From the NCBI GenBank assembly GCA_026984735.1, contig JALSRN010000101.1:34176-98175 (forward strand): a stretch of DNA of 64,000 bases. Direction: 5' to 3'. Position 1 is the stretch's first letter. Each line of letters begins with the position of its first letter. Below are positions 1-5,313 of this stretch, piece after piece. The position numbers and the translations under genes are program-made. The notes under the pieces were generated by a model. That model was not told the DNA's origin. It saw only the letters and a list, made by a program, of their open reading frames with translations, and did no database searches. This stretch comes from Sedimenticola sp. (GTDB taxonomy: Bacteria; Pseudomonadota; Gammaproteobacteria; Chromatiales; Chromatiaceae).

Positions 1-2483
1 GGCGGCTCCACGCCGCTGAGAACCGCTTGAAATCCTTCCAGCGCCTTTCCTTGCAGACGGATCTCCAATTCGTGCCAGCCAGGATCGAGAAACAGGGGAA
101 GGAATCGCATCGTCGTTTTTTCCACGGGGGCGTCCAGCGTGAACTCCCGACCGTCCACCCGCACCTGTGCCGGTCCGCGCAGGCGCAAGGCGAGTTGGTG
201 GAACCCCCGCTTTTTCACCTGGAACTGACCCGTGAACAGCGCCGCCGATACCTCTTTTGCCTTTTTCGCCCACGGGGCTCGTTTGCTGTCGAGCCTGGTG
301 ACGAGCGTCCTCTCGATCCGGTCGGTTCCACCTCCGTCGGAGTAAGAGTAAGTGAGCCGCAGCCCTTTTTGCCAAGGACCGGGATCCCGGCGCGGCCGCT
401 CGGTGTGCGGCGAGGTTACCTTGAGGGGCACTGGATTGCTGAACACCCGCCTTCCGCGGGGGGTCGTGGCCACCGCCTGGACGGTGACTTGGCCCAGGCC
501 CAAAAGAGAGCTGGGCAGGATCGTCTCCCATGCGCCGCTGCCCGCTTCGAGCTCGATCAGGGTGCGGGTGCCGACGCGAACGGCCACTTGACTCGCAGGT
601 GGGGCGCTGCCCGCCAACATGAAAGGGGTTTCGAAAGGAGCCTGCCGGTTTTCCGCCTTGAGCAGAGAGTGCAGTCCGTGATTGTCCACGCGAATCCAGT
701 GGTGTCGGGTGGTGCGCGTTCGCCGAGGCGCCTTTTCCACGGCGACCAGATGCAGTTCGTGATATCCGTCGCCCACCGTCTTGGTGTCGTAGATCAGAGG
801 CTTTCCGGGGAGCGCTCGTGCCACGATCCGGCCGTCGACCCACAGCTCCAGATGGTCGGTTCGTTCATCGCTCCTCGTGGGGAAGCGCATGGTGCCGCGC
901 CAAGGCCGATCGAGGGGAAGCTTGGGCAGGATGCGCTTGCGGGCTCCGCTGAAAGGGCGGGTCAGCGGATCGCCCACCAACAGCGCCTGGTAGGGCGAAG
1001 CGACGGCCATGTACCAAGATTCGCCCAGGCTGTATCCCAAAGCATAGTAGTAGTGCATCAGCGGCAGGGGAAACTTCTCCGCGAAGGCATAGGGTTCGGT
1101 CACCGCGCCGCTGGAGCCGGCGGCGCCTTGGCGCAGAAATTCGGTGAGCTTGGTTTGATGGTCATTGTCGAACACGGCTCCGTAGCTCGTGAAGGATTCG
1201 GCGATGGCGCCGGGCAGCATGCGGCTTCCGGAATTTTTCCAACGGAAGTTTCGGGTGCCGGCCACGAGTCCGATGATGTCCTTTCGCCGTCGCGGCAGAA
1301 TGCCGTCCTCCCCGTTTTTCCCCTTGGTGAGGATCGCGCAGCGGTGACCGATTTTTCTCAGCAAGCCGCAAGTTTCTGCAAACCACGGCTGACGGGTCTC
1401 CGTGCGGACGTCGTCATTTTCCATCAGATAGACCGTCCCTTTTGGACGAGTGGCATCGCTATGAGCCGCGCGGCTGAGATAATGCTGGATCTCGTTCAGG
1501 CTGTTTCCATGCTGGCCGGTGTAAGCCAGCAGGGCGCTCAGTTTGTACTGGTCGTGATTCGTGCCGCCGGGCAGTCCACCGCGGCTCCAATGGATGGTTG
1601 CGGCAAAGCCCAAAGGGGGTTCGAAACGGGCACGGGGCCGGTCTATCCGTTCCACCAGTGTCAGAAACCGGCGAGTCTTTTTGAGCGGAACCAGCCATTT
1701 GTCGTTGCGTAGGGTCAGGCTGTTGTCGTAACCGAGCTGCACGGCTGCTTCTAGTTGCTCTAGAGCGGCTTTCTTACGGCCGATCTGGGCGAGCACTTCC
1801 GCCATTCTGATCCGCAGGCGAGGATGGTCGCCATGAGTTTGAAGGAGTGGCCGAAGCAGTCGTAAGGCTTCATCGGCGTCTCCTTTTTTCAACGCTTGTT
1901 GTTCCTTTTTTAGCCGTTTGAGGTCTTCTGCTGAAAAACTGACGGCTTTTTTTGGGGGTGGAAAGAGTTGCCGGCGGTAGTAGTCGTTGGCGCGAGCGCC
2001 GATATAGTCCACCTTGCCGTCCAGCACCTGATTGGAGAAATAGGTCAAAGCGGTGATGGAAGCGCTTCCACCGAGATAACGGTGTGCCGAAATGCCGTTT
2101 TTTTTCAACGTCTTTTGGATGTCCACGGCGAAGGGAAAGTCGGCGGAATAGACGATGGTGTCGATATCCGCGTCGATTTCCATCCGCTCCATATACCGAC
2201 GGATCGGTTTCAAAATTCGCTCCACGAAATCTTCCATGGAAAGCCGTTCGATCGAGGGTAGGTTATGGAGTACCACCATGTGGCTCTGGGGAATGGGACG
2301 TAACGAGAGCCAATGGTTAGCCACAGTGAGCGACAATGGAGAGTCGCCGTTGATCACCACTAGGGTGGTTTCTGGCGAAGGGCTTGCCTCGGTCCGAGGA
2401 CAGGTGAATACCATGATGGCCAGCAAAAGAGCTGACGACAAAATTGTTGGGAAACTGAGAAGTTTGTTTCGAATGTTCGTCAC
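1..2483 (-). CDS. TIGR03790 family secreted protein (3' end beyond window)
   Basis: This gene is missing from the ORF track because it runs off the left edge; about 827 residues are visible. The start is a GTG at 2483 that overlaps the upstream stop as GTGA. A signal peptide is present (LSSALLLAIMVF). The core matches the TIGR03790 family: an early segment TLVVINGDSPLSLTVANHW, then GAAGSSGAVTEPYAF and the hallmark ALLVGDPLTRPF near residue 500. A TPR-like helical stretch (about residues 185-260) sits between the two halves of the core. Roughly 300 residues of beta-rich, Ig/PA14-like sequence follow the core. Function is unknown. From memory, the family occurs only in genomes with an exosortase, so a cell-envelope role linked to PEP-CTERM proteins is plausible. 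Family call is firm; role is inference. Confidence 0.85.
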   Translation of the reverse strand, partial: MTNIRNKLLSFPTILSSALLLAIMVFTCPRTEASPSPETTLVVINGDSPLSLTVANHWLSLRPIPQSHMVVLHNLPSIERLSMEDFVERILKPIRRYMERMEIDADIDTIVYSADFPFAVDIQKTLKKNGISAHRYLGGSASITALTYFSNQVLDGKVDYIGARANDYYRRQLFPPPKKAVSFSAEDLKRLKKEQQALKKGDADEALRLLRPLLQTHGDHPRLRIRMAEVLAQIGRKKAALEQLEAAVQLGYDNSLTLRNDKWLVPLKKTRRFLTLVERIDRPRARFEPPLGFAATIHWSRGGLPGGTNHDQYKLSALLAYTGQHGNSLNEIQHYLSRAAHSDATRPKGTVYLMENDDVRTETRQPWFAETCGLLRKIGHRCAILTKGKNGEDGILPRRRKDIIGLVAGTRNFRWKNSGSRMLPGAIAESFTSYGAVFDNDHQTKLTEFLRQGAAGSSGAVTEPYAFAEKFPLPLMHYYYALGYSLGESWYMAVASPYQALLVGDPLTRPFSGARKRILPKLPLDRPWRGTMRFPTRSDERTDHLELWVDGRIVARALPGKPLIYDTKTVGDGYHELHLVAVEKAPRRTRTTRHHWIRVDNHGLHSLLKAENRQAPFETPFMLAGSAPPASQVAVRVGTRTLIELEAGSGAWETILPSSLLGLGQVTVQAVATTPRGRRVFSNPVPLKVTSPHTERPRRDPGPWQKGLRLTYSYSDGGGTDRIERTLVTRLDSKRAPWAKKAKEVSAALFTGQFQVKKRGFHQLALRLRGPAQVRVDGREFTLDAPVEKTTMRFLPLFLDPGWHELEIRLQGKALEGFQAVLSGVEP

Positions 2484-4909
2484 TGGTCATTCCACGACGA
2501 GTCTTGCGCGGTGGCTGAAGCACGAATTGACATCTTGGAGTGGGGAAGCGGTGCGGCGTCCGTAGCCCTCCGCCAGGCTCCATGAATCCTACGCGTCAGC
2601 CAGTAACCTACCGCAATGCCAATGAACTCCAGCACCAGATCCGTGCTTCCCGCGATCTTTTCAGGAAGGGCTAATTGGCCCACCTCCACCGCCAATGGCC
2701 AGATCAGTACCGGCGTCAAACAGGCAGTTCCCCGAAGCTCTTTCCTGTGGCAGCTCATTCCCAGTGCCGCCAGGCCACCCAGCGGCATGAAAAAGGCCAC
2801 CTTGTGAATCAACTCGGTTACAGCCCTGTACTCGGTTCCGTAATAGTAGCTGAGGAAAGGAATCCGAAAGAAACCGGTAAGTTTTTCATTGATGAAGGAC
2901 GGTTGGAGACGAAAATCGAAGGGATACCAAAATATGGCCAGTAACACGCCACACCACCCCAGCAAAGCCGCGCAAGCGATGGCGGGACAGCGGCGATGTT
3001 CGAGGAACGACGAAGCGGTTTTCGTCGAAAAACCATGGGAAAGAAGACGGGTGCCCATCCGAGCGCCAAGCAATCCCCCTAACGTTGCCGTGAAGACGTC
3101 GGTGACGTCGGTCACCCGGGAATAGACGAAAAGCTGCATCGTCTCCAGCAACAACGCCAGAGCGGTCGTGACTGCCCATGATTTGAGAAGCGAAAGATTC
3201 CGGGAGAGCACCAGCAACAGACCCACCGGCACCCAGAGCAGCGTGTCCGTGGCCAGGGCATAGGCCCATTCGACCGGCGATCCGACATGAAAGCCGAACG
3301 GAATCAAAACAAGTTGACCATTTTTCCATTTATGGTAGATCTCCACGGGGCTCAAGGTGAGATCGAGGGGAAGTACGCCGTAAATGAAAACCACGGCCAG
3401 GTAGGCCCGGAGCAGATATTCGGCCAGTTGCGACCCCTCCACCGCCTGGTGGAATCCTTCCGCCCAGGCGACGATCTTTTCGCCTCTCCATCCCCACAAT
3501 AACAGACCGGCGGCGGCTCCCAGAAACTCGGCCACCAGATCGTTGAGGGAGACCGTCCTCTGGGGAAAGAAGAGCTGAGTGAACTCGATCATCGATGCCA
3601 GCACGACGGCGAACCCCAACATCAGGATGTATTTGACCGGGCTACATTTCGAAAACCGGCGAAAGAGGGCACAACCGAAAAATGTGAGGGGGATGAACAG
3701 AAGAATATTGGCCACCCAGTCGGCACGGGAACCGATGCCCAGCTGCAGGTAGCGGATTTGGAGGAAAGCGCGCCAAGCTTCATTCCAAGGTCGGGGATGG
3801 AAATCCAGAGGGACCAGGCTGCCATAGATCACGAAAAACAGATAACCGAGGAACAGGGCCGGCCAGAACCAGCGCGGTTTCTTCTTTCGCGGAAGCGCAT
3901 TCGTTCTAGAGGTTGCGACATTCGTTGATGGAAGGGCTTTCGAAGGCGAAGGGATGGGCCGGGTTCCTTTTTCTCGGCGAGACGATGAATTTCCACGATG
4001 GAATACAGGGTACTGAGAGAGTCCGAGCAGCAAAACCATTCCCAGATGGCCGGCGAGATATCGGATCAGCAGTTCACCACCCTGCGCATAATGGTTCCGG
4101 TCGGTGCTGAGCAGGAAGGAGAGGCCGGAGAAGACTTGTCCGTATTTGTACACCCGGGGATTCATGGCGAGGTTGATCGACAGAAACCCCGCCGCCAGCG
4201 TGAGCGCCAGCAACACCAGCAACGCGCCGGTCTGCCCGAAGCTGCCCCCCAGGCGGGCACCCATGGCGCTGCCGCCCACCGCCACCAGCAGCAGCCAGAG
4301 GGATAGAAAAAGGCCATAGCCCCCCTTGGCTCCTGTCGTCAACAGCTCCACCAGATTGTCGGTGGCCGCTTGATCCACCACCACCCAGTAGCAGAGGGGC
4401 ACCAAGAGCACCGCCAGGAGCGTCCAGGCTCCGAAAGGACGAAACCGGCCCGACCGGAGCCCGTTGAAGAGCAGAGCTCCCCCTATCAGCATGAGGTCCA
4501 CCCATCCGAACAGCGCAGCGAAACGCAAGGCGCGCTCCAGCTCCCCCGGCCAAGTCAGCACCGGGTTGCCCACGATATCGTGAATGCTTTCCAGCGGAAC
4601 GCTCAGGCGAAGGAAAAGATAGGTGAGGAGCGCGTGGACCAGAATCGCCGGCGGAGTTTGCCGGAGTCCCCGTGACGGATCGCTTTGCAGGCGTAACGAA
4701 AGCCACGCAGGGATCGAGAAGGCGAAAAGCGTCACCCCCGCAAGCAGCGCCGCGGCGACAGGGGCCGGCCAGCGTTCGAACAGTTCATGAACGTTGTAAG
4801 GGATGGCGGGAACCAGGGAAACCCCCCACAACGACAGAGCGGCGATGCTCCATGCCGCCAGAAAGGGAGGGGCATGGAGGCTGGCTCGCTGTTCCTCGAT
4901 CCTCTTCAA
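2480..4909 (-). CDS. Polytopic membrane protein with three tandem VanZ-like domains
   Basis: About 809 residues with roughly 20 predicted membrane segments. The first ~340 residues hold about eight helices of no family I recognise. Three VanZ-like units follow, each a first helix ending in a (Y)PLDF/PFDF-type motif, a helix with a conserved acidic/hydrophobic ELTQLF-like segment, and a closing helix after a D-L pair: IYGSLVPLDFHPR...MIEFTQLFF, IYGVLPLDLTLS...LLETMQLFV and IFWYPFDFRLQ...AVEVGQLAL. The track start at 5023 lies inside the upstream gene. I prefer TTG at 4909, which overlaps the upstream stop as TTGA. The 3' end overlaps the TIGR03790 start by 4 nt. VanZ domains are found in teicoplanin resistance and in envelope loci; the substrate here is unknown. 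Confidence 0.8.
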   Translation of the reverse strand: MKRIEEQRASLHAPPFLAAWSIAALSLWGVSLVPAIPYNVHELFERWPAPVAAALLAGVTLFAFSIPAWLSLRLQSDPSRGLRQTPPAILVHALLTYLFLRLSVPLESIHDIVGNPVLTWPGELERALRFAALFGWVDLMLIGGALLFNGLRSGRFRPFGAWTLLAVLLVPLCYWVVVDQAATDNLVELLTTGAKGGYGLFLSLWLLLVAVGGSAMGARLGGSFGQTGALLVLLALTLAAGFLSINLAMNPRVYKYGQVFSGLSFLLSTDRNHYAQGGELLIRYLAGHLGMVLLLGLSQYPVFHRGNSSSRREKGTRPIPSPSKALPSTNVATSRTNALPRKKKPRWFWPALFLGYLFFVIYGSLVPLDFHPRPWNEAWRAFLQIRYLQLGIGSRADWVANILLFIPLTFFGCALFRRFSKCSPVKYILMLGFAVVLASMIEFTQLFFPQRTVSLNDLVAEFLGAAAGLLLWGWRGEKIVAWAEGFHQAVEGSQLAEYLLRAYLAVVFIYGVLPLDLTLSPVEIYHKWKNGQLVLIPFGFHVGSPVEWAYALATDTLLWVPVGLLLVLSRNLSLLKSWAVTTALALLLETMQLFVYSRVTDVTDVFTATLGGLLGARMGTRLLSHGFSTKTASSFLEHRRCPAIACAALLGWCGVLLAIFWYPFDFRLQPSFINEKLTGFFRIPFLSYYYGTEYRAVTELIHKVAFFMPLGGLAALGMSCHRKELRGTACLTPVLIWPLAVEVGQLALPEKIAGSTDLVLEFIGIAVGYWLTRRIHGAWRRATDAAPLPHSKMSIRASATAQDSSWNDQ

Positions 4910-5313
4910 GGCCGGTCCCTGGTGGAAAACGTCAGGTAAAAAAGTGTGCCGCCGATGCCCACAAGGTTCAAGGCGATGTCGGTGAGCGACCCGAATCGCC
5001 CCGGCACGTGGAGTTGGTGCCACTCGTCGAAAAAAGCATAGGCCAGGGTGATCGCCAATGTGAGAAGAGCGGCATTTCGGGCGCTCTTCAATGAGGGGAA
5101 GAGGGCGCGATACCAGAGGGCGGCGAGGCCGCCGTAAAGGGGCACGTGAAGCAGGTTCTGCACGTTCGCCGGGGTCCAGTGCAACAGCTTTTCGCCCAGG
5201 GTGCGGGGGGCCTCCAGGTCGGGAATGGAGGAGAGCAGATAGATGCCGGCCATATAGGCGAGGGGCGGGCCGAAGCGCCGCAGCGGCGAAAGAGCGGTTT
5301 TCCGGATTTGCAT
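4906..5313 (-). CDS. VanZ family membrane protein
   Basis: 135 residues with four hydrophobic segments. It has the VanZ pattern: LLSSIPDLE in the first loop, NLLHVPLYGGLAALWY, a helix ending FFDEWHQLHVPGR, and SLTDIALNLVGIGG. This single-domain form is the usual family length. It opens the operon that continues into the triple-VanZ protein and the TIGR03790 protein, with a 4-nt TTGA overlap. The ATG at 5313 is the only good start. It sits 45 nt downstream of the traB-like stop, so it could be read through from that gene. Function is not established; VanZ-like proteins are envelope-associated. Confidence 0.82.
   Translation of the reverse strand: MQIRKTALSPLRRFGPPLAYMAGIYLLSSIPDLEAPRTLGEKLLHWTPANVQNLLHVPLYGGLAALWYRALFPSLKSARNAALLTLAITLAYAFFDEWHQLHVPGRFGSLTDIALNLVGIGGTLFYLTFSTRDRP

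Follow-up and report, generated by a model that had tools for sequence, protein, structure and literature searches.

What would a single-domain VanZ protein, a membrane protein with three VanZ domains and a secreted protein of the TIGR03790 family do together, encoded as they are by three overlapping genes of a Sedimenticola sp. genome (Gammaproteobacteria; assembly GCA_026984735.1, 2.44 Mb in 101 contigs)? The genes for these proteins (P0002, P0001 and P0003, respectively) lie on the minus strand at the left edge of the window, the whole stretch of 64,000 nucleotides analysed here (bases 34176–98175 of contig C101, JALSRN010000101.1). We find that the exosortase protein-sorting system and multi-VanZ proteins of this family go together. 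With moderate confidence, we read the trio as a module that works at the membrane and in the periplasm, part of an exosortase-A-type cluster for an exopolysaccharide or O-glycan, in which the VanZ proteins would act on a lipid-linked glycan and P0003 would serve as an adaptor.

Multi-VanZ proteins travel with the exosortase system

The survey covered 369 genomes of the class, in which a VanZ match over 60 bits was counted as a multi-VanZ protein. An exosortase is encoded in 127 genomes and a multi-VanZ protein in 23, of which 22 also carry an exosortase (Fisher p 2.9e-10, phylogeny ignored). When these 22 are taken together with two genomes that have weaker matches (G309 and G055), the multi-VanZ and exosortase genes share a contig in 13 of 24. 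Counted once per family, 7 of 17 families have the two within 60 kb of each other, where 1.0 would be expected (p 2.6e-5); this cut-off was picked after the distances had been seen, with similar results at 40 and 100 kb. The multi-VanZ gene often lies near the exosortase gene and sometimes inside the XrtA operon. A triple-VanZ-heparinase gene adjoins genes for a TIGR03108-type amidotransferase and an exosortase in G070 and G200; in the former, the amidotransferase scores 1027 bits against TIGR03108 and the exosortase 337 bits against XrtA. Within the genus, all three genomes with a multi-VanZ protein (G000, G376 and G380) have an exosortase, and among the twelve other congeners an exosortase is strong only in G382 and weak in G381. 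The evidence of clustering is strong.

The genome that holds the window encodes both an exosortase and PEP-CTERM proteins, five of which score over the PF07589 cut-off, and an exosortase-associated ligase stands in the trio's own cluster; the exosortase link proposed in an earlier note on this DNA thus holds. The exosortase gene, on contig C38, occupies a locus of standard make-up together with TIGR03018, TIGR03016, WecB, TIGR03108 and TIGR04063. Its product scores 195.5 bits against PF09721 and passes the general threshold of TIGR02602 (149.4 bits, cut-off 105.55), but fails that of XrtA (TIGR03109, 152.5 vs 208 bits). The same note had described TIGR03790 as confined to exosortase-bearing genomes, and a strict confinement is unsupported: an exosortase is found in 32 of 37 carriers, and the five carriers with no match include some incomplete genomes.

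The trio heads a polysaccharide cluster

Same-strand genes continue downstream of the trio, outside the window. They encode a weak GH57/deacetylase-like protein, GT4 and GT2 glycosyltransferases, a sulfotransferase (PF13469), a TPR protein and, further on, a sulfatase-fold membrane protein (PF00884) and a GNAT protein (PF13480); a second deacetylase-like protein was recognized by eye and has no Pfam match. Converging genes encode a Wzx-type flippase, an FkbM-like methyltransferase and one more glycosyltransferase. They also include TIGR03097 (297.6 bits, cut-off 188.1), the O-glycosylation ligase associated with exosortase A, which lies ~11 kb from the trio. The product of the cluster is probably a sulfated surface polysaccharide. 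The cluster extends ~20 kb beyond the window, which makes the real unit longer than the trio. The idea of a separate envelope system, with VanZ proteins feeding a TIGR03790 partner, is unsupported, as the trio makes up a single block within a larger polysaccharide cluster.

The three genes form an operon joined by 4-nucleotide overlaps with TTG and GTG starts, as the earlier note had read them (Table 1). In favour of the TTG start of P0001 are an AGGGA lying a few bases before it and a congener homolog that begins at the same alignment position. Overlaps of four nucleotides are ordinary in operons, and the triple-VanZ gene of a congener lies on the opposite strand, so the fixed stoichiometry deduced from the overlaps is unsupported. 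The P0003 gene is cut by the window edge and ends 70 nucleotides beyond the window start (full gene, L003:10107-12659). A gene for a TraB-type membrane protein, read by eye, lies 45 nucleotides upstream of the trio on the same strand. A promoter scan upstream of the trio found no sigma-70-like site, which says little for this organism.

Table 1 Features of the three-gene unit, with positions in the window.
Feature	Position	Strand	Details
Single-domain VanZ protein P0002	4906..5313	-	135 amino acids; ATG start; PF04892 41.2 bits, NF037970 57.3 bits
TTGA overlap	4906..4909	-	4 nucleotides; VanZ stop and triple-VanZ start
Triple-VanZ protein P0001	2480..4909	-	809 amino acids; TTG start; PF04892 123.6 bits in three stretches
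Eight-helix N-terminal membrane domain of P0001	3950..4909	-	res. 1–320; no Pfam match
VanZ domain 1 of P0001	3485..3868	-	res. ~348–475; ADWVAN, IEFTQ and SLNDLVAEFLG kept; best PF04892 stretch, res. 360–472
VanZ domain 2 of P0001	3035..3427	-	res. ~495–625; LETMQ and DVTDVFTATLGG kept
VanZ domain 3 of P0001	2555..2983	-	res. ~643–785; VEVGQ and STDLVLEFIG kept; third PF04892 match in the genome scan
GTGA overlap	2480..2483	-	4 nucleotides; triple-VanZ stop and TIGR03790 start
Secreted TIGR03790-subfamily protein P0003	1..2483	-	GTG start; TIGR03790 88.6 bits; 850 amino acids in full
TPR helical insert of P0003	1641..1931	-	res. 185–281; PF14559 5.6e-8 at res. 197–249; helices in the model
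Ser430-to-Tyr465 stretch of P0003	1089..1196	-	positions that in ordinary TIGR03790 hold a conserved His and Cys
C-terminal PA14-like β domain of P0003	1..386	-	from res. ~700; range inferred from the strand pattern in the model

Architecture of the VanZ proteins

Both P0001 and P0002 score above the Pfam gathering score for VanZ (PF04892, 30.1 bits), and the match of P0001 falls into three stretches behind eight helices that have no Pfam match, an arrangement that the earlier note had described correctly. The active-site residues of the Lipocone superfamily, the Glu of H3 (ExxQ) and the Asp of H4, are present in all three VanZ domains of P0001 and in P0002, which retains a DEWHQ...SLTD motif (EWHQ...TD active-site pair). 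Most relatives with a heparinase or Wzy fusion have another residue in place of the H4 Asp of VanZ domain 2, which P0001 keeps. A congener homolog is 50% identical to P0001 over residues 20–791.

The triple VanZ is found fused to a heparinase II/III-like domain (Hepar_II_III), to a Wzy_C O-antigen-ligase-like domain or, in the family of P0001, to the eight-helix domain; it is a swapped part joined to varied partner domains. The fusion partners of multi-VanZ proteins (heparinase, Wzy_C and Kelch) handle polysaccharide. The eight-helix domain is clear in only 3 of the 369 genomes, and in every case a triple VanZ is fused to it or overlaps it: the domain stands at the N-terminus in the window's genus and at the C-terminus in G010, and in G247 it has a separate gene with a 4-nucleotide overlap.

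Other multi-VanZ loci add variations on this theme. Wzy_C is fused C-terminal of the triple VanZ at L145, L149 and L152, and G338 carries a tandem pair of multi-VanZ-heparinase genes (L150:5773-13085). The congener G380 (L059:5427-8971) encodes a double-VanZ protein with a Kelch β-propeller, preceded by a single VanZ and a sulfotransferase and followed by a relative of PcRGLX-like polysaccharide lyases. A trypsin-like serine protease gene, recognized by eye, lies near the multi-VanZ gene in two genome families (G169 and G309; L142:6896-7843 and L157:8104-8874). The window's genome has a further VanZ gene on contig C13 (L017, 31 bits).

P0003 resembles a disabled protease

P0003 scores above the NCBIfam cut-off for TIGR03790 (67 bits), which bears out the family assignment first made from the sequence alone, and its match falls in two stretches parted by the TPR insert. 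The AlphaFold2 model, of good quality (mean predicted local distance difference test, pLDDT, 84.7), consists of a signal-peptide-like helix, two α/β halves around the TPR insert, and β domains. Foldseek, with this predicted model as the query, returned Ig-like proteins first, followed by gingipains K and R and by PA14 domains. The match to gingipain 4rbm has a probability of 1.0, a target template modelling score (TM) of 0.39 and an E of 1.9e-6; the PA14 carbohydrate-binding domain 6xa5 is matched with a target TM of 0.52 and an E of 2.5e-6. A sequence search found no Pfam C25 match, and searching the sequences of solved structures with either alignment gave nothing useful.

In the alignment of ordinary TIGR03790 proteins, a His (28 of 29 sequences) and a Cys (29 of 29) stand 35 residues apart, a spacing that may reflect a peptidase dyad: gingipain K has H444 and C477, 33 apart (PMC6426963). 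This pattern suggests that ordinary TIGR03790 is an unrecognised cysteine peptidase family. Three more Cys are invariant in ordinary members, and all are lost in P0003. Among the subfamily variants, the Cys position holds Tyr or Phe in 11 of 11 and the His position holds Ser or Thr in 9 of 11; the two members that keep the His are planctomycete. We rejected P0003 as an active peptidase, as its residues at the catalytic His and Cys positions are Ser430 and Tyr465. We infer that TIGR03790 is a peptidase-like family of which the window's subfamily would be a dead branch, and P0003 seems, from its model, to be a disabled protease with sugar-binding parts. Since no C25 sequence match was found, the peptidase-like reading draws on one predicted model and the conservation pattern.

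The VanZ pairing recurs with this TIGR03790 subfamily

The congener G376 (JALXAM010000044, Sedimenticola sp.) holds all three genes in a rearranged form: the single-VanZ gene overlaps the TIGR03790 gene by 4 nucleotides, and the triple-VanZ gene is on the opposite strand. The downstream order of deacetylase-like, GT4, sulfotransferase, GT2, TPR and sulfatase-fold genes is the same. A scan of an 85,462-species genome collection with two peptide patterns, which gives a lower bound, found the TIGR03790 variant at at least 13 loci in Gammaproteobacteria, an Azoarcus metagenome-assembled genome and Planctomycetota. The Azoarcus locus (L072) has, past two small toxin-antitoxin-like genes, a gene for a triple-VanZ-heparinase, in which VanZ repeats and heparinase II/III make up 1184 residues. 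In the gammaproteobacterium G309 (L073), a triple-VanZ-heparinase, the TIGR03790 variant, TIGR03097 and an XrtA exosortase (365 bits) lie inside ~37 kb. Several variant loci have no VanZ; most of those contigs are short.

A general partnership of VanZ with TIGR03790 was considered and rejected: none of 34 ordinary loci has a VanZ within ~9 kb on each side, some of these flanks being shortened by contig ends. As ordinary loci lack VanZ and the subfamily pairing recurs, the link is specific to this subfamily. The expectation that VanZ would stand beside TIGR03790 in other genomes was therefore right for the subfamily (G376, Azoarcus and G309) and wrong for the family at large. Neither of the outcomes named beforehand as refuting the proposal, a genome lacking an exosortase and a pairing seen in no other genome, was found.

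A proposed role in unloading a lipid-linked glycan

The Lipocone analysis (Burroughs et al. 2025, PMC12419801) predicts that VanZ works in the outer leaflet, attacking the phosphate linkages of lipid-carrier head groups; it also connects VanZ-1 with exopolysaccharide genes. The following is our inference on the reaction, on which way transfer runs and on P0003 as an adaptor. The flippase would first move a glycan linked to undecaprenyl diphosphate across the inner membrane. Next, the VanZ (Lipocone) domains would attack its phosphate linkage and take the chain, finished and probably sulfated, off undecaprenyl diphosphate; the chain would either be moved from the lipid carrier to an acceptor, or be released and the carrier recycled. 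P0003, secreted to the periplasm, would act as a non-enzymatic adaptor that holds the glycan and partner proteins at the VanZ proteins. It is best read as an adaptor because it combines TPR and PA14-like domains with a gingipain-like fold devoid of the catalytic Cys and His. Action on a finished chain would fit, since relatives fuse the triple VanZ to a polysaccharide lyase or O-antigen-ligase-like domain, and given flippase, ligase, sulfotransferase and lyase partners, unloading of a finished chain by VanZ is the simplest reading.

Several points weigh against this proposal. We know of no biochemistry for any VanZ of this type. The reaction at the lipid carrier is itself a published prediction (PMC12419801). 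The co-occurrence test takes no account of phylogeny, and the linkage cut-offs were chosen post hoc. Exosortase and trio lie on different contigs in the window's genome, and G052 has a triple-VanZ-heparinase and a TIGR03790 variant with no detectable exosortase. The structure model of the triple VanZ, of low confidence (predicted TM, pTM, 0.53), gave no significant structural match, and the gingipain match of P0003 stands at rank 18 of the Foldseek table.

A wider reading is possible, and we offer it tentatively. TIGR03790 would be a family of gingipain-like cysteine peptidases that has gone unrecognised in exosortase bacteria. The window's branch would have lost the catalytic pair, gained TPR and sugar-binding domains and come to serve, as adaptor, a multi-VanZ lipid-carrier enzyme by which the exosortase A pathway has its glycan finished or attached.

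Alternative explanations

VanZ might instead serve undedicated housekeeping, merely adjusting how much undecaprenyl carrier is available or how well the cell resists envelope-active compounds, and might stand here since polysaccharide clusters accumulate such genes, with P0003 an unrelated surface protein. In a mixed set of 24 genomes, 23 have VanZ, and the literature knows it from teicoplanin resistance (PMC7146870). We consider this explanation somewhat unlikely, however, as the trio is kept together in a rearranged congener, the subfamily pair appears again in Azoarcus and G309, and lyase or ligase domains occur in fusion with the triple VanZ.

VanZ could also be a ligase that is still missing: it would join the glycan either to a lipid anchor or to the C-terminus newly made when the exosortase cleaves PEP-CTERM proteins, and P0003 would present the glycan. 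The triple VanZ adjoining exosortase and amidotransferase genes in G070 and G200, and the exosortase in 22 of 23 carriers, would fit such a step, and terminal polysaccharide transfer is one possible VanZ reaction proposed by the Lipocone authors (PMC12419801). Yet the cluster already has the TIGR03097 ligase, and G052 has a triple VanZ and no exosortase. Moreover, 105 of the 127 exosortase genomes lack a strong multi-VanZ match, so VanZ cannot be a general exosortase step. We regard a ligase role as unlikely.

Would the operon act on proteins, with P0003 as a peptidase that follows the exosortase, processing PEP-CTERM proteins or releasing them, and the VanZ proteins as its partners? The bias of TIGR03790 toward exosortase genomes (32 of 37), the gingipain-like modelled fold and the His/Cys spacing of ordinary members, close to that of gingipain K (35 vs 33, PMC6426963), speak for it. 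Tyr or Phe replaces the Cys in P0003 and the variants, and Ser or Thr the His in all but two; a peptidase role is already unlikely for the window's subfamily, and we hold the explanation as a whole to be quite improbable. That the genes are chance neighbours with no common function would agree with the 34 ordinary loci and the several variant loci, mostly on short contigs, that lack VanZ, but it is very improbable and already largely refuted by a neighbourhood that is conserved yet rearranged, kept in two congeners with different gene orders and recurring in Azoarcus and G309.

Relation to known systems

The unloading module proposed here resembles the VanZ proteins of the Lipocone analysis in its VanZ domains, three in one protein and one in the other, which carry ExxQ and Asp motifs, and in an exopolysaccharide neighbourhood like that of VanZ-1. 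It differs in that P0001 has three copies, active-looking by their motifs, behind an undescribed eight-helix domain. The passages of PMC12419801 drawn on here describe no exosortase linkage and no triple-VanZ fusion to heparinase or Wzy_C, and the word exosortase is absent from the paper. Compared with PEP-CTERM/exosortase A clusters (Haft et al. 2006, PMC1569441), TIGR03097 is shared by the trio's cluster, and TIGR03018, TIGR03016, TIGR03108 and TIGR04063 stand by the C38 exosortase; here, however, the two clusters are on separate contigs and the exosortase is under the XrtA cut-off. The 2006 paper does not mention VanZ.

P0003 is like the TIGR03790 family in scoring over the curated cut-off and in coming from an exosortase-bearing genome, but it is split by the TPR insert, extended by Ig-like and PA14-like domains, and devoid of the His/Cys pair and the three further Cys. 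Its modelled two-part α/β fold followed by an Ig-like domain would resemble gingipains of peptidase family C25 (clan CD; 4rbm, 1cvr), from which it differs in having neither a Pfam C25 match nor the catalytic residues. Within the collection of papers searched, we found none tying VanZ to exosortase or PEP-CTERM, in agreement with the earlier view that the pathway had not been described, and none on TIGR03790 or on VanZ with heparinase and exopolysaccharide. What is new here is a multi-VanZ module of exosortase-A-type polysaccharide clusters, and with it a VanZ-exosortase link for which no paper was found.

The His/Cys pair of ordinary TIGR03790 suggests possible protease activity in a family for which we found no function in print. 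A family that joins a triple VanZ to a lyase or ligase domain and travels with the exosortase offers one gene that bears both on how an exosortase-linked polysaccharide exits from its lipid carrier and on what role VanZ domains play.

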